DNA of 53,712 bases, taken from assembly GCA_949287985.1 (NCBI GenBank), contig CASEIN010000009.1:1-53712 (forward strand), read 5' to 3'. The stretch comes from Mucispirillum schaedleri. GTDB taxonomy: Bacteria > Chrysiogenota > Deferribacteres > Deferribacterales > Mucispirillaceae. Positions within the stretch are counted from its first letter, which is position 1. Every line of letters begins with the position of its first letter. Below the pieces are notes generated by a model. The model did not search any database. It saw nothing but the letters and a program-made list of their open reading frames with translations, and was not told the origin of the DNA. Positions 12,149 through 53,484 of the stretch are shown piece by piece. Position numbers and translations under genes: made by a program.

Positions 12149-12181
12149 TTTAATACTATTTAAATAACTTAAGGAGTGTTT

Positions 12182-13039
12182 ATGTGGACTAAAGAAGATG
12201 AAATTGAGTTTTTTTTATCATCAATAAAAAATAATATAGACATCCAAAATCTTTTTTATAAAATAAAAGATAGCTACTTTGCATATATTCCTAAAAATAA
12301 TGAAAATAATATAGCAACATTACAATCTAGAAATGCAATTATAGGAAGTTGGACAGAAAAATGGTGTAAAGATTTATTAGAAGAAACTGCTAAGCAAAAT
12401 AATCTATATGCTATAAATGGAGTTATATGCGAAGAATTAGGTTTAAGTAAACAATCTAGTGCAGATTTAGCTTTTTGTACAACAAATGATATATACCAAA
12501 TTCCTGATAATATTAAAGTAATTTTTGAAATTAAAATGAGTATTGTAAATAATTATAAATATGAAACAAATAATAAAGAACCTATTATACACTATTATGG
12601 TGACTACAAATCACATAAAGGTATGCCTTCATTAAGAAGAAGTGATAGTGTTCTAAAAGCAATAGGAAAGGCAATAAATATTAGAGTATCTTCAGAAAAA
12701 GCAAACAGCATTCCAATTATTATTTTAGGTAATACAAATGTTAGTGAAAATTATTTGAATAAAATAGATCATCTTGGTAAATATGGTATAATACAAAAAG
12801 TTATTTCTTTAAATCCTAATATAAATGAAAATAATTGTTCAAAAGATAAGTTTTTCATAACACCAAATGATGAAACTGAACTTTCTTCCATATTAAATGA
12901 TATTTTAAAAATGGATTTACATTACTTTTCAACTATGATTGACATGGAAAACTTAGCTAAAATTATCAAAGACTCAGTTTTATATGATGATAATGAAAAA
13001 ATAGTTCAATATTTTTTAGACGCTATAAAAGGAGTTTAA
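12182..13039 (+). CDS. Putative type II restriction endonuclease (PD-(D/E)xK)
   Basis: A 285-residue protein directly before a DNA methyltransferase, one base apart. A PD-(D/E)xK nuclease core can be read: Asp95 in SADLAFC, then Glu116 and Lys118 in VIFEIKMS (D-x20-E-x-K). I place the start at ATG 12182, five bases after AAGGAG, rather than at the GTG two codons earlier. Base and codon use is even more AT-rich than the flanking biosynthetic genes, which fits acquisition. I cannot name the restriction specificity or subfamily. The alternative, a nuclease of another defence system, is less likely given the methylase partner. Confidence 0.78.
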   Translation: MWTKEDEIEFFLSSIKNNIDIQNLFYKIKDSYFAYIPKNNENNIATLQSRNAIIGSWTEKWCKDLLEETAKQNNLYAINGVICEELGLSKQSSADLAFCTTNDIYQIPDNIKVIFEIKMSIVNNYKYETNNKEPIIHYYGDYKSHKGMPSLRRSDSVLKAIGKAINIRVSSEKANSIPIIILGNTNVSENYLNKIDHLGKYGIIQKVISLNPNINENNCSKDKFFITPNDETELSSILNDILKMDLHYFSTMIDMENLAKIIKDSVLYDDNEKIVQYFLDAIKGV

Positions 13040-13040
13040 A

Positions 13041-13916
13041 ATGAAAAAATCTATAAGCTCATCTTTTGGAATAAGTAAGAGAGAAAATCATGATTCTAGT
13101 CCATTTTATAATTTGAAAATGTATAAGAATTTTCAAGATACAAAAGAAATAATGGCAGAAAATATTATTAGTAAACACAAACTAAATAATATATACAAAA
13201 AAAGTAGCGAAATTATGAGCGAGATTCCAAACAATAGTATTCATTTGGTGGTAACATCTCCCCCATACAATGTTAATAAAGAGTATGATAATAATTTATC
13301 TTTGGATGAATATTTAAAATTGTTAGAAAATGTTTTTAAAGAAACTTATAGAGTATTAGTTGATGGTGGAAGAGTATGTATTAATGTAGCCAATATTGGT
13401 AGAAAACCTTATATACCATTAACAACATATATAAATAGTATAATGATTAATATAGGCTATTTAATGAGAGGTGAAATAATATGGGACAAAAGTGCATCGA
13501 GTGGTGTTAGTTTAGCATGGGGTAGTTTTCAAAGTGCTTCTAATCCTGTACTTCGAGATACGCATGAATATATTTTAATTTTTTCAAAAACATCTTTTAA
13601 AAGAGAAAAAATGGAAAAAAATGATACTATTACTAAAGAAAAGTTTATGGAATACAGTAAATCTATATGGAGATTTCCTACAGCAAGTGCAAAAAAAATA
13701 GGACATCCAGCTCCTTTTCCTGTAGAACTACCTTCAAGGCTAATTGAATTTTATAGTTTCCAAAATGATATTATACTCGATCCATTTATGGGAAGTGGAA
13801 CTACTGCTGTTGCAGCACTAAATCTAAATAGATATTTTTTAGGCTATGAAATAAATCAGGATTATATTGATATAGCAAAAAAACGAATATTTCAAGAGAC
13901 GTTTTATACACAATAG
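13041..13916 (+). CDS. Beta-class DNA methyltransferase (N4-cytosine or N6-adenine)
   Basis: A 291-residue methylase. Catalytic motif IV TSPPYN lies at residues 72-77, ahead of the AdoMet-binding motif I DPFMGSGTT near residue 248; this order defines the beta class. SPPY is more frequent in N4-cytosine enzymes, but beta-class adenine methylases also use it. About 45 N-terminal residues precede the conserved part. AAAAGGAG lies in the end of the endonuclease gene, so the two are co-translated. The methylase should protect host sites from the upstream nuclease. A control (C) protein gene is not seen. Confidence 0.9.
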   Translation: MKKSISSSFGISKRENHDSSPFYNLKMYKNFQDTKEIMAENIISKHKLNNIYKKSSEIMSEIPNNSIHLVVTSPPYNVNKEYDNNLSLDEYLKLLENVFKETYRVLVDGGRVCINVANIGRKPYIPLTTYINSIMINIGYLMRGEIIWDKSASSGVSLAWGSFQSASNPVLRDTHEYILIFSKTSFKREKMEKNDTITKEKFMEYSKSIWRFPTASAKKIGHPAPFPVELPSRLIEFYSFQNDIILDPFMGSGTTAVAALNLNRYFLGYEINQDYIDIAKKRIFQETFYTQ

Positions 13917-14057: not shown

Positions 14058-15077
<1,020 letters not shown>

Positions 15078-15113
15078 TTATACCTCATAATATTTTATCA
15101 GTTTTTAAGACTG

Positions 15114-15638
15114 TTATTTACTATTATTTTTTATTTTTTCCATTTCGCTTGTAGCTTTTGAGCCTCTGCCAATTGCAAGGCAGCCTGAACGCACCATTTC
15201 AATAATACCATAAGGGCGAACAAGCTCAATAAATGCTTCCAGCTTATCATTATCACCAGTGATTTCTATTACCATACTTTCAGGGGTAATATCAACCACA
15301 TTTCCTCTAAATGTATTTACCATATTATAAACATCACTTCTATATTTTTGAGTAACATATACTTTTATTAATATAAGCTCTCTTTCAATATGGTTGTAAG
15401 ATGTTAAATCTCTCACTTTTAATACATTTATAAGCTTACGAAGCTGCTTTATAATTTGCTCTATAATCTTATCATCACCAACTGTAACAATAGTCATCAT
15501 AGAAACATCATGTTTTTCCGTAGAGTTAACAGTTAAGCTTTCAATGTTATAGCCTCTGCCTGAAAACAGACCTGCAATACGAGCAAGCACACCAAATTTA
15601 TTTTCTACAAGTATTGATATAATATGTCTTTTTTCCAT
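15114..15638 (-). CDS. ilvH: Acetolactate synthase small (regulatory) subunit
   Basis: A 174-residue regulatory subunit that binds valine and activates IlvB. The N-terminal ACT domain reads HIISILVENKFGVLARIAGL followed by FSGRGYNIESL. The C-terminal half (about 80-160) is the second, typical domain with the VRSGCLAIGRG end. It sits six bases after ilvB. Both domains are full length, so valine feedback is expected. Confidence 0.95.
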   Translation of the reverse strand: MEKRHIISILVENKFGVLARIAGLFSGRGYNIESLTVNSTEKHDVSMMTIVTVGDDKIIEQIIKQLRKLINVLKVRDLTSYNHIERELILIKVYVTQKYRSDVYNMVNTFRGNVVDITPESMVIEITGDNDKLEAFIELVRPYGIIEMVRSGCLAIGRGSKATSEMEKIKNNSK

Positions 15639-15644
15639 AGCTGC

Positions 15645-17339
15645 CTACCTGATTATCATTTCATCTATGGAAGCACCAGCTGGCACCATAGGGTATACGT
15701 TTTCTTCTCTGTCACATAGAAAATCCATAAGCACTGGTCTATCTTTTATTTTAAGAGATTCTCTTAAAACAGCCTCCACATCTGATGGTTTTTCAGCACG
15801 TAAACCAATACAGCCGTAAGCTTCAGCAAGTTTTACAAAATCTGGCTGCACCTCAAGGCATGTATCTGAATATTTTTTATTAAAAAATAACTGCTGCCAC
15901 TGCCTAACCATACCTAAAAACTTGTTATTAATAATAACTGTTTTTATGCCTACTCTATATTGAACACATGTAGTAAGCTCTTGTATATTCATTAAAATAC
16001 CACCATCTCCAGATACACAAAACACTTCCTTATCTGGTCTGCCAACTTTTGCACCCATAGCAGCAGGAAGACCGTAACCCATAGTCCCCATACCACCTGA
16101 TGATAAAAACTGGCGTGGAAATTTATATTTATAAAATTGACCTGTCCACATTTGATGCTGGCCTACATCTGTTGCAATAATAGCATCTCCATTTGTAACT
16201 TTATAAAGTGATTCTATAACAAACTGTGGTTTTATAATATTATCGCTGTATTTATAAGAAAATGGTTTTTCATTATCCCAGGATTTAACAGTATCAAACC
16301 ATTTATCTCTATCATCTTTTGATTTATCCCATTTAAAATCACCAAGATATTTATTAATCATACATAAAACATTGTAGCTGTCCCCTACAACTGGTATTTC
16401 AATATCTACAGTTTTAGAAATAGATGATGGGTCAATATCAATATGAGCAATACGTGCATTTTTTGCAAACCTGTCTAACCTACCAGTAGAACGGTCTGTA
16501 AAGCGTGTGCCTATGGCTATAATATAGTCGGATTCTGTAACTGCCATATTAGATGCATAATTACCATGCATACCAAGCCAGCCTATCCACTGTTTATCGT
16601 TAGCAGGGTAACCACTTAAGCCCATAAATGATGAAACTACAGGTAAGTTTAATGCATTTGCAAACTTAATAAGTTCTTCTGTTGCACCTTTACTAACCTT
16701 TACACCACCACCAATATATATAACTGGTTTTTTAGCAGTCTCTAATACTTTTAAAAGTTTTTTCACCTGCATTGGGTGGCCTTCCACATTAGGCTGATAG
16801 CCTGCTAAAAATATTTTTGCATCAGGTTCGTATTTAGTTTTAGCTGCAAACACATCTTTTGGAATATCTACTAAAACAGGCCCAGGTCTTCCTGTTGTAG
16901 CAATGTGTATTGCTTCATTTAATGTATTTGCCAAATCTTTAACATCAGTAACAAGATAGCTGTGTTTTACTATAGGACGTGTAATACCAACAATATCAGC
17001 TTCCTGAAATGCATCGCCACCTATTAAGTTTGTAACAACCTGCCCAGTTATTACAAGCATAGGCACGCTATCCATATAAGCTGTACCAATACCTGTTACT
17101 AAGTTAGTAGCACCAGGCCCACTAGTTGCCATACATACACCAATTTTGCCAGTAGCTCTAGCATAGCCGTCAGCAGCATGGGCTCCCCCCTGCTCATGAC
17201 GTGGCAGAATATGTTTTAAATCAGAATCAAATAATGTATCGTAAAACCCAGTTAAAGAACCACCTGGGTAGCTAAATATTACTTCTACCCCGTTTCGCTT
17301 TAAGCAGTATATAACTATTTCACCACCTGAACAAATCAT
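15645..17339 (-). CDS. ilvB: Acetolactate synthase large (catalytic) subunit
   Basis: A thiamine-diphosphate enzyme of 564 residues forming acetolactate or acetohydroxybutyrate. VIFSYPGGSL and RHEQGGAHAADGYAR hold the conserved glutamate region. The FAD-binding middle domain is present. The ThDP motif runs from GDGGILMN to INN near residues 445-472. The start has GGGAG just upstream and matches the usual start of the conserved domain. It lies between ilvD and ilvH. Confidence 0.96.
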   Translation of the reverse strand: MICSGGEIVIYCLKRNGVEVIFSYPGGSLTGFYDTLFDSDLKHILPRHEQGGAHAADGYARATGKIGVCMATSGPGATNLVTGIGTAYMDSVPMLVITGQVVTNLIGGDAFQEADIVGITRPIVKHSYLVTDVKDLANTLNEAIHIATTGRPGPVLVDIPKDVFAAKTKYEPDAKIFLAGYQPNVEGHPMQVKKLLKVLETAKKPVIYIGGGVKVSKGATEELIKFANALNLPVVSSFMGLSGYPANDKQWIGWLGMHGNYASNMAVTESDYIIAIGTRFTDRSTGRLDRFAKNARIAHIDIDPSSISKTVDIEIPVVGDSYNVLCMINKYLGDFKWDKSKDDRDKWFDTVKSWDNEKPFSYKYSDNIIKPQFVIESLYKVTNGDAIIATDVGQHQMWTGQFYKYKFPRQFLSSGGMGTMGYGLPAAMGAKVGRPDKEVFCVSGDGGILMNIQELTTCVQYRVGIKTVIINNKFLGMVRQWQQLFFNKKYSDTCLEVQPDFVKLAEAYGCIGLRAEKPSDVEAVLRESLKIKDRPVLMDFLCDREENVYPMVPAGASIDEMIIR

Positions 17340-17383
17340 TTTGTTTCTCCCATCATTAAGCTTAAGAAGTATAACTTCTTAAA

Positions 17384-19042
17384 TTATATATCACGCTTGA
17401 AAATTGCACCTTCATTGGCACTAGATACGCCTTTTGCATATTTTGCCAAATATCCACTTGCTACTTTTTTAGCAGGCATTTTGAAATTAGCACGTCTTTT
17501 TTCAAGTTCAGCATCACTTACTTCTAAATTTATTTTTCTTTCAGGTATATTAATAGATATTTTATCACCATCTTCTACTAAGCCGATAATACCACCTTCA
17601 GCAGCTTCTGGTGAAATATGACCAACACATGGACCTCTTGTGCCACCTGAAAATCTGCCGTCAGTAATTAAAGCTACCTGAGTAAGCCCAAGCCCAGCAA
17701 TAGCAGCAGTTGGGGCAAGCATTTCTCTCATACCTGGGCCACCTTTTGGACCTTCGTATCTTATAACTACTATATCACCATTTTTAATTTTACCACCCAT
17801 AATAGCAGCCATTGCATCTTCTTCAGAATTAAAAGTTTTTGCACAACCAGTAAACACCATCATATCAGGATTAACTGCACTTTGTTTAATAACAGAGCCA
17901 CCTGGAGCAATATTTCCACGTAAAACTGCAATACCACCTTCCTTGTGATATGGGTTATCTATACCTCTAATAATATCGCTGTCATAATTTTCTGCTGCTT
18001 TACATATTTCTTTAACAGTCATACCACTAACAGTAATATTATCTTCTAATAAACTTTCCAAAGATTTCATAACAGCAGGAACGCCACCTGCAAACTCTAA
18101 ATCTTCCATAAAATATTTCCCACCTGGAAGAAGGCTTGTAATGTGCGGAGTTTCTTTAGATAAAGCATCAAAAGAATCTAAATTTAAAGGCACACCTGCT
18201 TCATAAGCAATAGCTGGAAGGTGTAAAGTTGTGTTTGTTGAGCCACCTAAAGCTAAATCTGCCCTAATAGCGTTTTTAAATGCTTTTTCATTCATAATAT
18301 CAAGTGGTTTAATATCTTCTTTTACTAAAGATACAAGCCTTACACCAGAATCAAAAGCAATACGGCGTTTTTTAGCCATACCAGCCATAGCTGTAGCACA
18401 GCCTGGCATACTCATACCCATAACTTCTGTAAGGCATGCCATAGTATTAGCAGTGAAAAGCCCTTGACATGAACCTTCCCCAGGGCATGCTGTCATCTCT
18501 AGATTTGTCATTTCTTCATCATCTATTTCGCCTGTTGCTGCTTTTGATGCTGCTTCAAAAGAATCAGTAATAAAATCACGTCTTTTCATACGGTAGTTAC
18601 CACTCATCATAGGACCAGCTGTAACAAATATGGAAGGGACATTAATACGTGCAGCAGCCATAAGCATACCCGGTGTGATTTTATCACAATTTGTAATAAA
18701 TAAAACACCATCAAGAGAATGGGCATTAACAACACATTCTATCATATCAGCAATAGCATCTCTACTTGGCAGACTGTAACGCATACCAGAATGCCCCATA
18801 GATATACCATCACAAACTCCAGGAACACTGAAAATAAACGCCTGCCCACCACCAGTGTGTATACCTTTTTCAGCAAATCTTTCCAATATTCTCATACCAG
18901 AGTGCCCTGGAATTAGGTCTGTAAAACTGGAGCATATACCTATAAAGGGTGCATTCATTTGTTCTTTTGAAACACCTGTCCCATATATTAATGCTCTATT
19001 AGGTGCTCTTTGGCAGCCTTGTTTAATAATATCACTTCTCAT
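17384..19042 (-). CDS. ilvD: Dihydroxy-acid dehydratase
   Basis: An iron-sulfur dehydratase giving 2-oxoisovalerate and 2-oxo-3-methylvalerate. The protein is 552 residues. The cluster cysteines are in [18 protein letters not shown] and [22 protein letters not shown] and [13 protein letters not shown] are the C-terminal signatures. It is the first gene of the ilv operon, with a gap of about 44 bases to ilvB and a divergent chemoreceptor gene upstream. No leader peptide or T-box is obvious in the 190-base divergent gap. Confidence 0.96.
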
Positions 19043-35840: not shown

Positions 35841-37829
35841 TTATTTATAACCACCTGCTGCCTGTAAAAGTCCAAGTATTTCTTGAGAGCCTTCATTATA
35901 TGCAATTAAGTATGGAGATACACCATCGTTATTACGTTTATTTGGATCAGCACCTGCAGTTAAAAGCATACGAACCATATCTGCATTTTTAAGTTTAGTA
36001 GCCCAAATAAGAGCAGTATCACCATTTTTATTTGCTGTATTTACTTGAGATTTTGCCTTAATTAAAGTATCTACCATAGCACTATCTGCTGATGTAACTG
36101 CAATAATTAATGGAATATTACCTTGATTATTTTTAATATTTACATCTGCCCCATTTGCTATTAAAGCTTGAGTAATATATAAATAATTATTTGCAACAGC
36201 TGTAAATATTGGCGTATTACCAGTATTTTTATCTCTTGCATTAGGATTTGCACCCATTTTAATGGAGCTTATAGCACCATCAGTATCATTTCTTGCCACT
36301 TGAGCAAATAATGCAATGGAGGCTTCATCAAAAGTTTTCATATTTTGACCTAAAATCCTTTGCAGCTGTGCATATCCATTATCTTGAGCTAAATCAAAAG
36401 CAGTTTTATCCTCTTTATTTTTTATTTGAATATCTGGTTTATTTTTCAATAATTCTCTAACCATTGGTGTATCACCTGCTAATGTAGCAGTCATTAATGG
36501 AGTATTGCCAAGTGGGTCTTTTGCATTAATATCAGCCCCTGCTTTTAAAAGGTCATTTGTAATATCAGTATTGCCTTGTTGAACTACTGCCATTAATGGA
36601 GTATATCCTTTTTTATTTTTAATGTCAGGGTTTAAACCTTTAGAAAGCAGATTTTCTAAAGTGTATTTGTTGTTTTCAACAGCAGCTTTCATAACAGCAC
36701 TGTTTCCTTGATTATCTACAACATTAGGGTTAGCACCTTTTTTAAGCAGGCTGTCAACAGTTTTAGTGTTACCTGTTCTTGCTGCTATTAAAAATGGAGT
36801 TTCACCATCTTTGTTTCTGTCTTCAATTCTTGCACCATTATCTATTAACATATCAGTAAGATAAGTATTAGGTGAAGCTGCAGCATACATTAATGGAGTA
36901 TTGCCACCATTATCTTTATCATTAACAGGAAGCCCTGCTTTTAACAGTTTTGATGCTATATCATAAAGCCCAAAATTTGAAGCAATATGAAGAGCAGACT
37001 GCCCCATATTATTTTTGTGTTTTGCATTTATTCCTTTATCTAATAACAGATTTGCAATGCTTTCATCACCATTAACAATAGCAGCCGTTAAAGCATTATC
37101 ACCAGTTTCTGGGTTTAATTCATTTATGTTAGCATTGTTATTAAGCATTTTTAAAAGCCTGTCATACTGTCCGTTTGTAGCAGCAGTAATTACTGGTTTA
37201 TCTTTTACAACAGCATTTTTATTTGTTGTATTAAAAGTGTTATCACCTTTTACAACAGGTGTTGGTGCATTATTTGCAGGAGCTGCCGTATAAGGAAGCT
37301 GGTTTGCTAAATCAAGACTGTTTAAAAGAACTAAATGAGATAATTCTTCTTTATTGTATAAAGCTGTGCTGTCAACAGCTATCATTTTAGTAAAGCCAGT
37401 ATTATTTTTGCCTGGAAGTAATTCTTTTAAATTAAAATATTCATTAGGGTTAAATTTATTAATGTATGTTTTAACATCATCTGATGGCATTTCATAAACT
37501 GCTCCGTTTGAAAAGTCTACAATAATACCAAAATCACTTCCAGAAGAAGAAAGTGGTTTAGAACTAAAAGCATTCCACCCATTAATATCATTATTTAATA
37601 TGGCAGTAACAGGAGCAGAACCTATTTTTTCAAATTTTAAGGATACACTTTTTTTATCATTAGGCATTCTAAAAAGCACAGGCATATTAGTTTCTTTTTT
37701 ATTAACTTTATAAAGCATAACAGGTTTTTTACCCTGCTCTTGAGTAGAAGGGTCTTTAAAAATATTATTTTTTTGGGCACAGCCAAAAGTAAATATAATA
37801 ATTAAAATAAAAAGAAATAACTTGCGCAT
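35841..37829 (-). CDS. Ankyrin-repeat lipoprotein
   Basis: A 662-residue lipoprotein (signal peptide ending FTFGC, Cys17). Residues about 40-190 form an unassigned N-terminal domain. From about 215 to the end there are roughly 13-14 ankyrin repeats of 33 residues (units such as NTPLMYAAA and DTALIWATKL). One break near 490-510 lies around GQNMKTFDEAS, where the eighth repeat is cut short. The protein is probably held in the periplasm as a protein-binding scaffold. Periplasmic ankyrin proteins in other bacteria include catalase-associated ones, but nothing here fixes the partner. Confidence 0.85.
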   Translation of the reverse strand: MRKLFLFILIIIFTFGCAQKNNIFKDPSTQEQGKKPVMLYKVNKKETNMPVLFRMPNDKKSVSLKFEKIGSAPVTAILNNDINGWNAFSSKPLSSSGSDFGIIVDFSNGAVYEMPSDDVKTYINKFNPNEYFNLKELLPGKNNTGFTKMIAVDSTALYNKEELSHLVLLNSLDLANQLPYTAAPANNAPTPVVKGDNTFNTTNKNAVVKDKPVITAATNGQYDRLLKMLNNNANINELNPETGDNALTAAIVNGDESIANLLLDKGINAKHKNNMGQSALHIASNFGLYDIASKLLKAGLPVNDKDNGGNTPLMYAAASPNTYLTDMLIDNGARIEDRNKDGETPFLIAARTGNTKTVDSLLKKGANPNVVDNQGNSAVMKAAVENNKYTLENLLSKGLNPDIKNKKGYTPLMAVVQQGNTDITNDLLKAGADINAKDPLGNTPLMTATLAGDTPMVRELLKNKPDIQIKNKEDKTAFDLAQDNGYAQLQRILGQNMKTFDEASIALFAQVARNDTDGAISSIKMGANPNARDKNTGNTPIFTAVANNYLYITQALIANGADVNIKNNQGNIPLIIAVTSADSAMVDTLIKAKSQVNTANKNGDTALIWATKLKNADMVRMLLTAGADPNKRNNDGVSPYLIAYNEGSQEILGLLQAAGGYK

Positions 37830-41734: not shown

Positions 41735-41758
41735 TTTTATCTTTATATGAAGATAAAA
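41735..41758 (+). promoter_or_regulatory. Hairpin enclosing the flhF start codon
   Basis: A 9-bp stem TTTTATCTT/AAGATAAAA (41735-41743 with 41750-41758) with the loop TATATG ending in the ATG. It follows immediately after the AAGGAG site (41729-41734), which is 12 bases from the ATG. It could tune translation, though eight of the nine pairs are A-T. Confidence 0.45.
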
Positions 41759-43342: not shown

Positions 43343-44184
43343 CAGATCAGGCATTTACATTAAGAAGAAGAGCGTGGGAAGCTAACAGGAACAGCCATTA
43401 TATTGCAGTTTCCAGTGGAAAAGGCGGTGTAGGTAAGACTAATTTTACTGTTAACTTTGCATGTCAGCTGGCAAATCTTGGCAAGAAAGTTCTTGTATTT
43501 GATGCAGACTTAGGGCTTGCCAATGTGGATATTATGTTATCACTTTCTGTTACTGCAACTATTAAGAAATATCTTGAAGGCAGAGCAAGTATTGATGATA
43601 TATTGAAAAAAGATATATATGGGTTTGATGTTTTTCCAGCGTCTAGTGGTTTTATGGAGCTTGCTCATTTATCTGATGAAGATTTTGATAAAATATTCAA
43701 TATATTTATAACTTTAGATGACAGATATGATTTTATTATTTTTGATACTGGAGCAGGTATATCAGATGCTGTAGTTAGGTTTAGTTCAATATCAGACACT
43801 GTTATTGTAGTAACTCAGCCAGAGCCTACTGCTATTACAGATGCTTATGCATTTATGAAAGTTGTTAGGCAGGCATATGACATTAAGCTAATTAATGTTG
43901 TATTTAACAGGGTAGATGATATACAAAATTCAGACAATGTGTTTGCAAGTCTTAAAAATGTAGCATCAAAATTTTTAAATATGGATTTACGTTTATTAGG
44001 ACACTTACGAGATGATAAAAATGTTCGTAAAGCAATAAGAGCACAAAAACCTGTTAGTATAATTGATCCGAAAACTGCATTTTCAAAAGATATTCAAGAA
44101 TGTGCAAGGCGTTTTATTGGTGCACCTTTAGAAAAACAAAAAAGTGCCAATGTTTATAATCTATTTAAGGGGGTGTTTAAATGA
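43339..44184 (+). CDS. flhG: MinD-like ATPase FlhG (FleN)
   Basis: A MinD/ParA-type ATPase that limits flagellar number together with FlhF. I choose ATG 43339, which has GGAG seven bases upstream and overlaps the flhF stop as ATGA; the in-frame ATG 43327 has no site. The protein is 281 residues. The deviant Walker A is SSGKGGVGKTNFTVN. Other motifs are FDADLGLANVDIML and FDTGAGISDAV. The activator residue Gln/Asp region of FleN near the N-terminus (TDQAFTLRR) is plausible. It is tightly coupled to the next small gene. Confidence 0.93.
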   Translation: MTDQAFTLRRRAWEANRNSHYIAVSSGKGGVGKTNFTVNFACQLANLGKKVLVFDADLGLANVDIMLSLSVTATIKKYLEGRASIDDILKKDIYGFDVFPASSGFMELAHLSDEDFDKIFNIFITLDDRYDFIIFDTGAGISDAVVRFSSISDTVIVVTQPEPTAITDAYAFMKVVRQAYDIKLINVVFNRVDDIQNSDNVFASLKNVASKFLNMDLRLLGHLRDDKNVRKAIRAQKPVSIIDPKTAFSKDIQECARRFIGAPLEKQKSANVYNLFKGVFK

Positions 44185-44387
44185 TTACATCTCTTAAATA
44201 TTATCCCATATTAGTTGCATCAATTGTTATGATGGCATCATTTTTATTTAAAGTTCTTTTGGTGCCTGATTTAAAGGTAACATATTTTGCAAGGGATATA
44301 ATATTATTTTTTATAGTTTATTATGTTGTAAAAGTTTTAACAAATAGTCTTGCCAGAATATTAAAAAATTACTGGAAAATACTGTAG
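44181..44387 (+). CDS. Small membrane protein between flhG and fliA
   Basis: A 68-residue protein with two predicted membrane helices (about 8-28 and 35-56) and a basic tail ARILKNYWKIL. The ATG overlaps the flhG stop by four bases, and AAGGGGG lies nine to ten bases upstream, so it is very likely translated. I do not recognise the family. Its position in the flagellar regulatory block suggests a role in motility or polar assembly, by context only. Confidence 0.75.
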   Translation: MITSLKYYPILVASIVMMASFLFKVLLVPDLKVTYFARDIILFFIVYYVVKVLTNSLARILKNYWKIL

Positions 44388-49347: not shown

Positions 49348-51498
49348 ATGAATAATGATGATATGCAGGAATTAGTTCAAGATTTTCTTGTTGAGACTAA
49401 TGAAATAATTGAGAACTTAGACCATGACCTTGTGGAGCTTGAAAGTAATCAAAACGATTTAGAGCTTTTGAATAAGATTTTCCGTGGTGCTCACACAATG
49501 AAGGGTTCCTCCTCATTTTTAGGTTTTAATAAATTAGCTGACCTTACTCACCATGCAGAAGATATCCTTAATAAACTCCGTAAAGGTGAAATGGTTGTTA
49601 CAAGAGAAATTATGGATACTCTTTTAGAGTTTGTTGATAAAACAAAACAAATAATCAGCGATATTGAGAACGGAACAGATACAGCTGATGTAGCATCAGT
49701 TATTAATGATTTAAAATTAGCTAGTGAAGGTAAGCTTGTTGGTAAAAAACCAGCGGCAGCACCAGCTGCACAAGGGCAGGCAGCAGCTGCACAAGGGCAG
49801 GCAGCAGCTGCACCAAAGGCTGCTCCTAAGCAAGATAATAAAGTAACTCATCAGGTAACACAAGTAGAGCAGACTATTCGTGTTGATGTTAGCAGGCTTG
49901 ACTCTCTTGTTAACTTAGTTGGTGAGCTTGTTTTAAGCAGGAACAGGCTTTCTCAGATTGCTGGTGAATTAGAAAACAAGTTTGAAAATGAATATCTTGT
50001 AGAACAGCTTTTAGATGTTACAAGTGCTATTGGTATGAATACTACAGAATTACAGCTTGCTATCATGAAAACAAGAATGATTGCAATAGGTAAAGTATTT
50101 AACAAATTTCCAAGGGTTGTTCGTGATATTGCAAGAGATACAGGTAAAGAAATAGATTTGATTATTCAAGGTGAAGAAACAGAGCTTGATAAACAAGTTA
50201 TTGAATCTATTGGCGACCCACTTTTACACATGATTAGAAACTCATGTGACCATGGTGTTGAAACACCAGAAGTTCGCCTTGCAAAAGGTAAACCTAGAAT
50301 GGGAACAGTTCTATTATCAGCATACCATGAAGGTAACCATGTTGTTATTGAGATAAAAGACGATGGTGCTGGTATGGACCCAGACAAATTAAAACGTAAA
50401 GCTATGGAAAAAGGTGTTATTACATTAGATGAAGCTAACAACATGGACGATAAACAGGCATTTGGATTAATATTTAAAGCTGGTTTTTCTACTGCTGAAA
50501 AAATTACAAATATTTCAGGGCGTGGCGTTGGTATGGACGTTGTTCGCACTAATATTGAAAAATTAAATGGTATTATTACCATTGATTCTAAAATAAATGA
50601 AGGCTCAACATTCTATTTGAAACTTCCATTAACACTTGCAATTATTCAAGCGTTATTAGTTGAAGTTGCAGGTGAAACATTTGCGATACCACTTGCTTCT
50701 GTTGTGGAAACAGTTCGTATTACAAATGAAGAAATCCACTCTTTTGAAGGAAGGGAAGTATTAAAATTAAGAGATAGAGTTCTTTCACTTGTAAGGCTTG
50801 ATGAAGCATTTGCTTTAGATGAGTTAGAACAAGATGAAATATATGTAGTTGTTGTTGCATTAGCAGAAAAACAACTTGGTTTTATAGTTGATAAATTAAT
50901 TGGTCAGGAAGAGATAGTTATTAAATCACTTGGTGAATACCTTGGTGGAAACCCTGGTATTGCAGGTGCTACAATTACAGGTGATGGACGTGTAAGACTT
51001 ATTCTTGATGTATCAGGTGTTATAGAAGTAGCACAAAATATGCCTAGAAGAATAAGAAACGTTAAAAAACTTGGTAATAATAAAAGAGCTGTTCAAGCAC
51101 AGCCTAAAAAAACTAATGCAATTAAAGTTCTTATATGTGATGATTCTTCAACAGATAGAAAAATATGTAAAAAAGTATTAGAATCCCAAGACTGGATAGA
51201 AACTGTTGAAGCACCATCAGCAAAAGATGCATTAAATTTACTTGATAGAGATAAGGGTATAGATTTAATTATCAGTGATATAATGATGCCAGATATGGAC
51301 GGTTTTAGGCTTTCAAGAAGCATTAGAGAAAAAGGCTATGAAGTTCCTATAATTGCAGTATCAGCAAGAATGGAACCATCTGATAGAAAAAAAATGAGTG
51401 CTTCTGGTATTAATGCTTTTGTTCAAAAGCCAATTAACCAGCAGCTGTTACTGGATAAGATTGATGAGCTTATCTCTCAACAAAATAATAACGGTTAG
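49348..51498 (+). CDS. cheA: Chemotaxis histidine kinase CheA with C-terminal receiver domain
   Basis: A 716-residue hybrid kinase that phosphorylates CheY and CheB. The HPt domain (1-110) has His49 in RGAHTMKGSS. An Ala/Gln/Pro linker at about 135-165 takes the place of a clear CheY-binding P2 domain. The P3 dimerisation segment (LDSLVNLVGELVLSRNRL), the ATPase domain with HMIRNSCDHGVE, DDGAGMD and ISGRGVGMDVV, and a CheW-like domain near 440-580 follow. Residues about 590-714 are a receiver (ICDDSSTD, phospho-Asp near 644 in ISDIMMPDMDG). The fused receiver could act as a phosphate sink. The next gene starts 35 bases before its stop. Confidence 0.96.
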   Translation: MNNDDMQELVQDFLVETNEIIENLDHDLVELESNQNDLELLNKIFRGAHTMKGSSSFLGFNKLADLTHHAEDILNKLRKGEMVVTREIMDTLLEFVDKTKQIISDIENGTDTADVASVINDLKLASEGKLVGKKPAAAPAAQGQAAAAQGQAAAAPKAAPKQDNKVTHQVTQVEQTIRVDVSRLDSLVNLVGELVLSRNRLSQIAGELENKFENEYLVEQLLDVTSAIGMNTTELQLAIMKTRMIAIGKVFNKFPRVVRDIARDTGKEIDLIIQGEETELDKQVIESIGDPLLHMIRNSCDHGVETPEVRLAKGKPRMGTVLLSAYHEGNHVVIEIKDDGAGMDPDKLKRKAMEKGVITLDEANNMDDKQAFGLIFKAGFSTAEKITNISGRGVGMDVVRTNIEKLNGIITIDSKINEGSTFYLKLPLTLAIIQALLVEVAGETFAIPLASVVETVRITNEEIHSFEGREVLKLRDRVLSLVRLDEAFALDELEQDEIYVVVVALAEKQLGFIVDKLIGQEEIVIKSLGEYLGGNPGIAGATITGDGRVRLILDVSGVIEVAQNMPRRIRNVKKLGNNKRAVQAQPKKTNAIKVLICDDSSTDRKICKKVLESQDWIETVEAPSAKDALNLLDRDKGIDLIISDIMMPDMDGFRLSRSIREKGYEVPIIAVSARMEPSDRKKMSASGINAFVQKPINQQLLLDKIDELISQQNNNG
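49764..49813 (+). repeat. 21-bp tandem repeat in the cheA linker
   Basis: Two perfect 21-bp units (49764-49784 and 49785-49805) plus an eight-base partial copy encode two AAQGQAA blocks. The frame is kept whatever the copy number, so length may vary between strains. Confidence 0.9.
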
Positions 51499-51802
51499 TT
51501 TGATAACGTTTATATTTTTGATAATATTAGTTCAGGTTGCTGCAGCAAGGGTATATGTTTATGAAGTAACCACTGCAGCAACGCGTTTTCAAACAGCATC
51601 TAAATTGCCACCAGATGCGTTTTTATATTATAATGGTGGTTATGATGTTATATATGACCTTAAAGTATTAGCTACGTATCCTGATGAAAAAATGGCTCAG
51701 GCCTTAAAGGATTATAACCTTGAGAAAAATAATAGTAACCCTCTTATTCACAACCCTGTTCCTCGCAATATCCCCAAAAAACCATATTATTGGTGGAGAT
51801 AG
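51464..51802 (+). CDS. Unassigned small secreted protein, 112 residues
   Basis: Not recognised. ATG 51464 lies inside the end of cheA. The N-terminus is a signal peptide or anchor (LNKIITVSLITFIFLIILVQ, then VAAA). The mature part starts RVYVYEVTTAATRFQTAS and ends NIPKKPYYWWR. Its last 83 bases also encode the signal peptide of the next protein in another frame. It should act outside the cytoplasm. A link to the motility operon is by position only. Confidence 0.65.
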   Translation: MSLSLNKIITVSLITFIFLIILVQVAAARVYVYEVTTAATRFQTASKLPPDAFLYYNGGYDVIYDLKVLATYPDEKMAQALKDYNLEKNNSNPLIHNPVPRNIPKKPYYWWR

Positions 51803-52532
51803 TCTTTTTGCAAATACATATGAAGAATTAAATATGTATGAGGTTCGCATTGAAAATAACATATCAAAAGTAATAACTACAATGACAGTAATGGCTCAAG
51901 ATGAGCAGCAGGCAAGAGAGAATGTATCATTAAACGGCTGGAGTGTTATTGGTGTTAAGCTTTTAAAAGAACGTGTAAAAGAAACATATAATCTTTCTTC
52001 AGATTCTGTGGCAACTACAATACCAAATAAAATTGATTTAGAAGGTGCAATTAATATACCTGCAGCAGAAAATAAAGCACAAGCACAAAAAAAAGAAACC
52101 CCTAAAAGTAATGAAAATATAGTATCAAAAGAAAGTGGCAATAAAAATGTGGCTGATAATTTGGAACTACTGCCAACTTCAAATGAATTAGAGTTAATAT
52201 TAACAATACATTTTAATCTTGGAAATGTATCTCCAGTATTTAATGATAATGTATCACGTATTTTTGAAAAACTGCCAAAAGACAGGGATTATGTTTTGTT
52301 TGGTAATGCAGATGAAGTTCGTGTGGGCAAGCATGCTACATATGGCAGCAATTACGAACTTTCTTACTTACGAGCAGAGCATATTAAAAAACTTCTAATT
52401 GAAAAAGGATATAATGCCGATAAAATAAGAACAGTGGGGTTAGGGACACGTTATCCACTGGAAAAAAACGGTAAAAAAGGCAGTTTCAAAAATAGAAGAG
52501 TAGAGATATATGGATTCAGAACGCAAAGCTAG
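51720..52532 (+). CDS. OmpA-family peptidoglycan-binding protein
   Basis: A 270-residue exported protein. I choose TTG 51720, because AAAGGA lies five bases upstream and it gives a signal peptide (MRKIIVTLLFTTLFLA); the first ATG, at 51837, would remove it. Residues about 40-85 form a small domain (MYEVRIENNISKVITTM, then ARENVSLNGWSVIGVK) whose layout recalls GspF/PilC N-terminal segments. A charged linker spans 90-155. Residues 158-268 are an OmpA C-terminal domain (LTIHFNLGNVSP, ELSYLRAEHIKKLLIEKGY, KNRRVEIYGF). It could anchor a motor or envelope structure to peptidoglycan. Confidence 0.75.
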   Translation: MRKIIVTLLFTTLFLAISPKNHIIGGDSLFANTYEELNMYEVRIENNISKVITTMTVMAQDEQQARENVSLNGWSVIGVKLLKERVKETYNLSSDSVATTIPNKIDLEGAINIPAAENKAQAQKKETPKSNENIVSKESGNKNVADNLELLPTSNELELILTIHFNLGNVSPVFNDNVSRIFEKLPKDRDYVLFGNADEVRVGKHATYGSNYELSYLRAEHIKKLLIEKGYNADKIRTVGLGTRYPLEKNGKKGSFKNRRVEIYGFRTQS

Positions 52533-53484
52533 ATACGAACAGCTGTATAATATTAAACTTACAGAATTTTATAATTTTGTAAGTGAAGTTATGGGCGATT
52601 TTAATTATTCAATTCATAGAACAGTAAAAGACATTGAAAATAAAAGACGTATTGAGATTTGGGCATATCAAAGCAGGGAAGACCAGTCAGCAGTAGTTTG
52701 GATAGAAGTTGTGAAACCGGGGGAAGTTTTAGACCCGTATATTACAACAGACGTATTACGAACAATGAATGATGAAAATGTAACACGTCTTTTCTTTTTT
52801 ACAAATGGTCAAATGGGACCTGAAGAAAAAGAGGTTTTAGAAGGTTCAAATCACTTTGTTTTTGGAACAGATGAAATAGTAGAAACTTTAATAGCCATAG
52901 ATATGAAACGGTCTATTAAAGTAGTTCGTAAACGTAAAAAAGTTCAAGTTCCATCAGCTATGGTTTTAATAAAAAATTTCTTAAAAGCAAATAGAGTAAC
53001 AAGAAGGGAAATAAAACTAAAAACCAGTGCAGTGCCTGAGCTTGCTGGTCAATATTATAAATTAATTAGGCGTGTTTTAAATGAAATTGATAAGATACCT
53101 GATATAAATGACATTCCAACACAGTCTAGGGAAAGGCTTAAAAAAATACAGTATGATTTGCTGCCAGAGCTGTTAAAGACACCATACTATACTTTTACAT
53201 ATCAATTTGCATATTTAAGAAATGCATTATTTTCGTTAATTGAATATACAATAGTATACATTGGTAATGTAATTGAGTATGAATCAGAAGATGACTTAAA
53301 GAAAAACAGAGAAGTTATTGAAGAAATCATGAGTAAGCTTGACAGTGTAGATGACCAGATAGCAAATTATAAGTCAGATTTAATGTTTTCTTCAGAAAAG
53401 ATTGCATTAAAATTAATAATGTATGCTGGGTTATTTAGTGTTATTGCACTTTTTATATTAATTGTCCTAAAATTTACAAGATAA
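52510..53484 (+). CDS. Unassigned protein with nuclease-fold-like N-terminus and C-terminal membrane anchor
   Basis: A 324-residue protein starting 23 bases before the OmpA-family stop. Residues about 25-130 have the strand order of restriction-endonuclease-like domains (RRIEIWAYQ, SAVVWIEVVKPGE, VTRLFFFTNG). The catalytic (E/Q)xK appears displaced as EVVK, so cleavage activity is doubtful. Residues 135-295 are helical with paired basic and acidic stretches. A single helix at about 300-321 anchors the C-terminus, leaving the bulk in the cytoplasm. Function unknown. It is the last well-supported gene of the motility block. Confidence 0.65.
   Translation: MDSERKARYEQLYNIKLTEFYNFVSEVMGDFNYSIHRTVKDIENKRRIEIWAYQSREDQSAVVWIEVVKPGEVLDPYITTDVLRTMNDENVTRLFFFTNGQMGPEEKEVLEGSNHFVFGTDEIVETLIAIDMKRSIKVVRKRKKVQVPSAMVLIKNFLKANRVTRREIKLKTSAVPELAGQYYKLIRRVLNEIDKIPDINDIPTQSRERLKKIQYDLLPELLKTPYYTFTYQFAYLRNALFSLIEYTIVYIGNVIEYESEDDLKKNREVIEEIMSKLDSVDDQIANYKSDLMFSSEKIALKLIMYAGLFSVIALFILIVLKFTR

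Follow-up and report, generated by a model that had tools for sequence, protein, structure and literature searches.

Three overlapping genes downstream of cheA in Mucispirillum schaedleri, here designated P1, P2, and P3, are specific to the phylum Deferribacterota (as defined by GTDB) and very probably dedicated to the flagellum, a dedication that is well supported across the genomes surveyed. We propose that their products form a phylum-specific accessory module of the cell envelope located at the flagellar motor, a reading to which we assign a probability of about 0.42. The co-occurrence of the genes with flagella, their place after cheA, the spread of P1 and P3, the predicted folds, and the secretion and anchor features are the observations on which this proposal is built; mechanistically, the module may act as a motor scaffold or as a pole or assembly factor.

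Overlapping genes follow cheA in a flagellar and chemotaxis gene cluster

The window, i.e., the whole stretch of 53,712 nucleotides that was analyzed, is a single contig within a 2.44-Mb assembly. Its forward strand encodes flhF, flhG, a 68-residue membrane protein, fliA, cheB, fliM, a fliN/Y-like second C-ring-type gene, cheY, cheZ, and cheA between positions 41747 and 51498, with FliM identified by PF02154 and the other names mostly assigned by sequence reading. The gene for the 68-residue membrane protein (44181–44387), which has no Pfam match, holds its position between flhG and fliA throughout the class. Elsewhere in the window, reading of the sequence alone points to a possible restriction endonuclease gene beside a DNA methyltransferase with an SPPYN motif (12176–13916) and to a secreted protein with many ankyrin-like repeats (35841–37829).

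The trio continues the cluster on the same strand: P1 (51464–51802) and P2 (51720–52532) encode secreted proteins of 112 and 270 residues, respectively, and P3 (52510–53484) encodes a 324-residue protein predicted to be cytoplasmic with a C-terminal membrane anchor. The overlaps described in the initial annotation are exact to the base, i.e., 35 nt between the cheA stop (51498) and the P1 start (51464), 83 nt between the P1 stop (51802) and the TTG start of P2 (51720), and 23 nt between the P2 stop (52532) and the P3 start (52510). These overlaps are a family trait. Across 19 loci, the usable P2 starts closest to the expected position lie approximately 68–98 nt inside P1 (one locus, L051, being ambiguous), and the overlapping segment encodes the P2 signal peptide. 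At its end (51783–51802, forward strand), the P1 codons TGG TGG AGA specify the terminal residues WWR and the +1 frame yields a conserved GG pair near the end of the P2 signal peptide, a pattern present in all 19 of the 19 loci. This amounts to a dual-frame constraint, with the conserved GG of P2 dictated by the WWR codons of P1. The overlap does not account for the P1 tail, however: the P1 proteins of family f10 end in WYR even though P2 is missing there.

The synteny search proposed in the initial annotation showed that the order cheA-P1-P2-P3 is the same in 19 loci, which represent every family of the class that was sampled, and that the full order from flhF through flhG, the small membrane protein, fliA, cheB, fliM, the fliN/Y-like gene, cheY, cheZ, and cheA to the trio is kept in those loci with enough sequence. 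This arrangement after cheA is not due to chance. In the deep-branching family f10, probably of Chrysiogenes type, three genomes carry cheA-P1-P3 without P2 and have an extra gene inserted earlier in the cluster; their P3 proteins are only 18–19% identical, though length, element order, and tail are retained. In a termite-gut MAG (G024), P3 is detached: cheA-P1-P2 share a contig, whereas P3 occupies a separate one with other surroundings. In a further genome (G031) a contig end falls between P2 and P3. A second P3 occurs in G028 on a smaller contig, 11–13 kb from a second flagellar-type cheY/cheA set (L105:2840-3811 and 14869-17562), with no flagellar structural genes nearby.

The trio had been placed at the end of the chemotaxis operon, a description that reflects the end of the contig at position 53712, just 228 bases past P3. 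In close relatives the same-strand run continues with genes for a SpoIIE/PAS phosphatase, STAS and STAS-HEAT proteins, CheR, and others. Further along, this run, which is the same as that of flhF and flhG, encodes an N-terminally anchored DUF6115 protein (E 1.5e-8; L054:16631-17227, L061:16679-17281, and L060:16627-17157) with a weak, sub-cutoff match to DUF2802, the domain of FipA. To judge from its sequence, this protein is possibly a FipA relative outside the gammaproteobacteria.

P1 and P3 are retained and lost with the flagellum

Single-protein searches of 60 genomes had found P1, P2, and P3 within the class; the sole matches beyond it were one marginal P1 hit and cross-matches of P2 by its OmpA domain. 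Using profiles that included the f10 homologues, we then counted 51 genomes of the phylum, the source of the window included. Homologues of P1 and P3 were present in 49 of these and FliM (PF02154) in 48, the three without FliM being G016, G023, and G025. Two of them, G016 and G023, are 99% complete and lack P1, P3, and FliM alike; G025, a MAG of 64% completeness, has both P1 and P3 without a FliM match. G030, a congener of G016 and G023, contains FliM and all three trio genes. The absence of the trio from G016 and G023, which may be the non-motile Flexistipes, counts as one loss event, in which the flagellar-type CheA went along. Both genomes still retain CheW-domain proteins and a different CheA of approximately 800 residues, whose locus contains a chemoreceptor gene but none for the flagellum; loss of the trio therefore tracks the flagellar system rather than chemosensory proteins in general. 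Instead of lying mostly away from motility genes or never co-occurring, the members of the trio are syntenic with flagellar and chemotaxis genes phylum-wide and absent where the flagellum is absent.

Beyond the phylum, P3 matches were marginal and partial at best (E of 0.003 or weaker), whereas P1 had one clear match and a few weak ones; none of the viral contigs searched encoded P3. Searches outside the phylum with A8 covered four genomes, these phyla being tiny in the set, and the E-values for G129 and G221 are inflated because A8 contains both sequences. Secreted domains that resemble P1 but lack the WWR tail are encoded by one genome from a different phylum (E 1.2e-8) and by each of the three genomes from a third phylum. 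The loci concerned (L093:693-1013, L094:6945-7463, L122:6820-7302, and L123:7080-7394) showed no flagellar genes, and the two of these domains that were tested matched no Pfam family. The occurrence of such domains in non-flagellar loci of other phyla indicates that the domain predates its flagellar version or is more widely distributed.

P3 is predicted to combine a catalytically degenerate nuclease-like fold with a membrane anchor

Structure prediction, run for P1 and P3 as the initial annotation had advised, was informative for P3. The AF2 model (mean pLDDT 88, pTM 0.52) comprises a restriction-endonuclease-like domain (residues ~1–135), a helical bundle (149–280), and a long C-terminal helix (280–323) with a hydrophobic end. 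In VIA comparisons, residues 1–138 aligned with AF1548 (1y88; Z 9.9, rmsd 3.1, 108 residues aligned), AspBHI (4oc8; Z 9.7, rmsd 3.6, 130 aligned), MspJI (4f0p; Z 9.2, rmsd 4.1, 136 aligned), and the jaw domain of RPB5 (Z ~8). Foldseek alone gave no match to P3 at E ≤ 0.001, no Pfam, NCBIfam, or PDB family was assigned, and a PDB profile search returned nothing meaningful. Mrr_cat matched two P3 members at the level of E 0.005. Because many rows of one superfamily agree, and given these Mrr_cat matches, we conclude that the N-terminal domain, as modeled, has the core fold of the PD-(D/E)XK superfamily.

The catalytic D...(D/E)xK motif of this superfamily is absent from P3, with position 68, two residues after the invariant E66, not being lysine in the Deferribacteres rows. 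Residues R47, E49, W51, W64, E66, R84, N99, R142, and E258 are conserved; f10 has Y and R at the positions of E49 and E66. On account of the missing motif, we rejected P3 as an active nuclease. The helical bundle matched receptor sensor domains and talin, i.e., the kind of hits expected for any such bundle, and the hydrophobic C-terminal segment is present in the P3 homologues. Of the earlier description of P3 as a tail-anchored protein with a nuclease-like fold, both the fold and the C-terminal hydrophobic helix were borne out by the model, and the catalytic motif is missing.

P1 is a small exported domain and P2 a dispensable OmpA-type protein

P1 consists of a signal peptide (residues ~1–28), an alpha/beta domain (29–94), and a flexible tail running to the terminal WWR. 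The domain was modeled as a beta-beta-alpha-beta-alpha fold (mean pLDDT ~85) with no confident structural match in the PDB (best Z 3.3), and, as for P3, no Pfam, NCBIfam, or PDB family was assigned and a PDB profile search returned nothing meaningful. Residues Y33, T44, S46, G58, G59, D61, N90, W110, W111, and R112 are invariant in A5. The homologues mostly have signal peptides with small residues at positions -3 and -1, and their tails end in WWR or WWK, or in WYR in f10.

P2 has a signal peptide, an N-terminal domain of ~45 residues with an NGW motif, a variable linker, and a C-terminal OmpA-like domain. Its N-terminal domain contains the invariant residues A65, N72, G73, and W74 and is not homologous to P1 (hhalign probability 4%). 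The OmpA domain scores above the Pfam cut-off (29.4 vs. 27.2 bits) and occurs in 18 of 20 family members; the only other PF00691 matches in the genome are two MotB-type proteins encoded elsewhere. Given these separate proteins, a score of 52.5 bits against a cut-off of 250, and a signal peptide in place of a membrane helix, we rejected P2 as a MotB stator. A Pal lipoprotein was likewise rejected, as the P2 N-terminus has no lipobox cysteine and Pal_lipo scored 27 bits against a cut-off of 125. The role of P2 as a peptidoglycan anchor suggested earlier agrees with the OmpA domain, but this anchor is dispensable, with Calditerrivibrio-type P2 keeping the N-terminal domain without the OmpA domain and f10 lacking P2 entirely. 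For these reasons the ancestral core of the trio is P1 plus P3, and the earlier picture of a three-part assembly spanning the envelope is not upheld.

Weighing a motor-side module against alternative roles

We favor a module at the motor because this reading accounts for the secretion of P1 and P2, the membrane anchor of P3, and the retention of the genes with flagella, and because class-specific scaffolds offer a precedent (PMC7990780; PMC12222027; PMC13023049). P3 would sit on the inner membrane through its C-terminal helix, with the inactive nuclease-fold domain and the helical bundle in the cytoplasm, and could dock at the flagellum base on the switch complex, the stator, or the export-side face. 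Exported P1 would use its domain and its C-terminal aromatic-arginine tail to dock on a periplasmic face of the motor, and P2, where present, would link this periplasmic part to peptidoglycan by its OmpA domain, as MotY does in Vibrio. The three proteins may contact one another physically, although no more than a few residues of the predicted P3 tail would reach the periplasm, and contact between P1 and P3 is not obvious. So assembled, the module would brace or position the polar motor. In other phyla, unrelated proteins such as MotX/MotY, PflA-D, and FlcA-D have such a role. Polar motors are known to contain class-specific periplasmic scaffolds (PMC7990780), and PflC is a scaffold whose catalytic site has decayed (PMC12222027).

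Comparison with these systems reveals partial likenesses. As in the MotX/MotY T-ring of Vibrio, a flagellum-linked, secreted protein whose N-terminal domain is followed by a C-terminal domain of OmpA type is partnered by a small secreted protein; in contrast, the ~45-residue N-terminal domain of P2 and the whole of P1 have no Pfam match (the MotY-specific N-terminal domain matched none of the 20 P2 members), P3 has no counterpart, and the OmpA domain proved dispensable in evolution. Like PflA-PflD of Campylobacter and the E-ring protein FlgY, some of which derive from decayed enzymes (PflC), the trio would be a class-specific accessory of a polar motor, but no TPR, MgtE_N, or HtrA-like domain was matched in P1–P3. 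For E-ring FlgY/MotE, which is marked by a MgtE_N-type domain, divergent homologues are described as hard to detect by sequence (PMC13023049). P3 residues ~1–135 share their fold with the N-terminal domain of RPB5, with MspJI/AspBHI, and with other PD-(D/E)XK-fold proteins (VIA Z 7–10); P3 differs in having no (D/E)xK and in its fusion to a helical bundle and a membrane anchor.

The cluster mixes flagellar genes, flhF/flhG, and chemotaxis genes, so gene position does not tell apart a role in the motor from one in the pole or the chemosensory array, and the putative complex may be located at any of these. A close second, though less likely than not, is a pole or assembly factor in which membrane-anchored P3, in the manner of FipA or HubP, acts as a landmark or recruiter of FlhF/FlhG or of early parts of the basal body, while P1 and P2 mark or grip the wall there. 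The trio shares its operon with flhF/flhG and is lost together with the flagellum, and FipA, a membrane protein with one helix and a cytoplasmic domain that is needed for FlhF placement, is encoded just downstream of the Vibrio flhF-flhG-fliA-che operon (PMC11620751). P3 resembles FipA in its single helix, cytoplasmic domain, and operon, but is anchored at the C-terminus rather than the N-terminus and has a nuclease-like fold rather than DUF2802; it has neither an N-terminal membrane helix nor any Pfam family, and no LysM or FimV TPR match characteristic of HubP/FimV was found in P1–P3. The N-anchored DUF6115 protein with DUF2802 similarity in the same run may itself fill the FipA niche, which weakens P3 as a FipA replacement, and a role at the pole leaves the secretion of P1 unexplained.

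We consider it improbable, and rank third, that P3 serves the flagellar-type CheA/CheW array, by organizing it or holding it at the membrane or by linking it with the motor, with P1 and P2 on the periplasmic side. The trio directly adjoins cheA in nearly all genomes, and the second P3 of G028, near flagellar-type cheY/cheA and MCP genes without flagellar genes, fits a signaling or array role. Against this, the genomes without a flagellum still have CheA, CheW, and MCP genes in a cluster but no trio, which is therefore not a general requirement of arrays, and P1 and P2 are secreted to where array components do not lie. Least probable is that three unrelated envelope genes are co-transcribed passengers acting elsewhere, for example with P2 a general peptidoglycan tether and P3 a residual nuclease or defense protein. 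The P1-like domains in non-flagellar loci of other phyla and the separation of P3 from P1-P2 in one MAG would agree with this; however, the core of the trio is kept with the flagellum phylum-wide and lost with it, and P3 is without a catalytic motif.

Implications for flagellar motility in Deferribacterota

Our literature search found no Deferribacterota flagellar locus with these genes and no structural work on the flagellar motors of the phylum, nor do we know of any such work. More tentatively than the motor-side module itself, the genes might define a new, phylum-ancestral class of complex at the flagellar motor or pole. Its tail-anchored cytoplasmic scaffold would be a nuclease fold that has lost its activity, P1 would dock by its WWR terminus, and P2 would be a later, peptidoglycan-gripping addition. 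If so, the nuclease fold would join the enzymes recruited as motor scaffolds, as with PflC. A phylum-wide, unnamed gene pair tied to the flagellum provides concrete candidates for accessory structures, and bears on the swimming of Mucispirillum, a mucus-dwelling gut bacterium.
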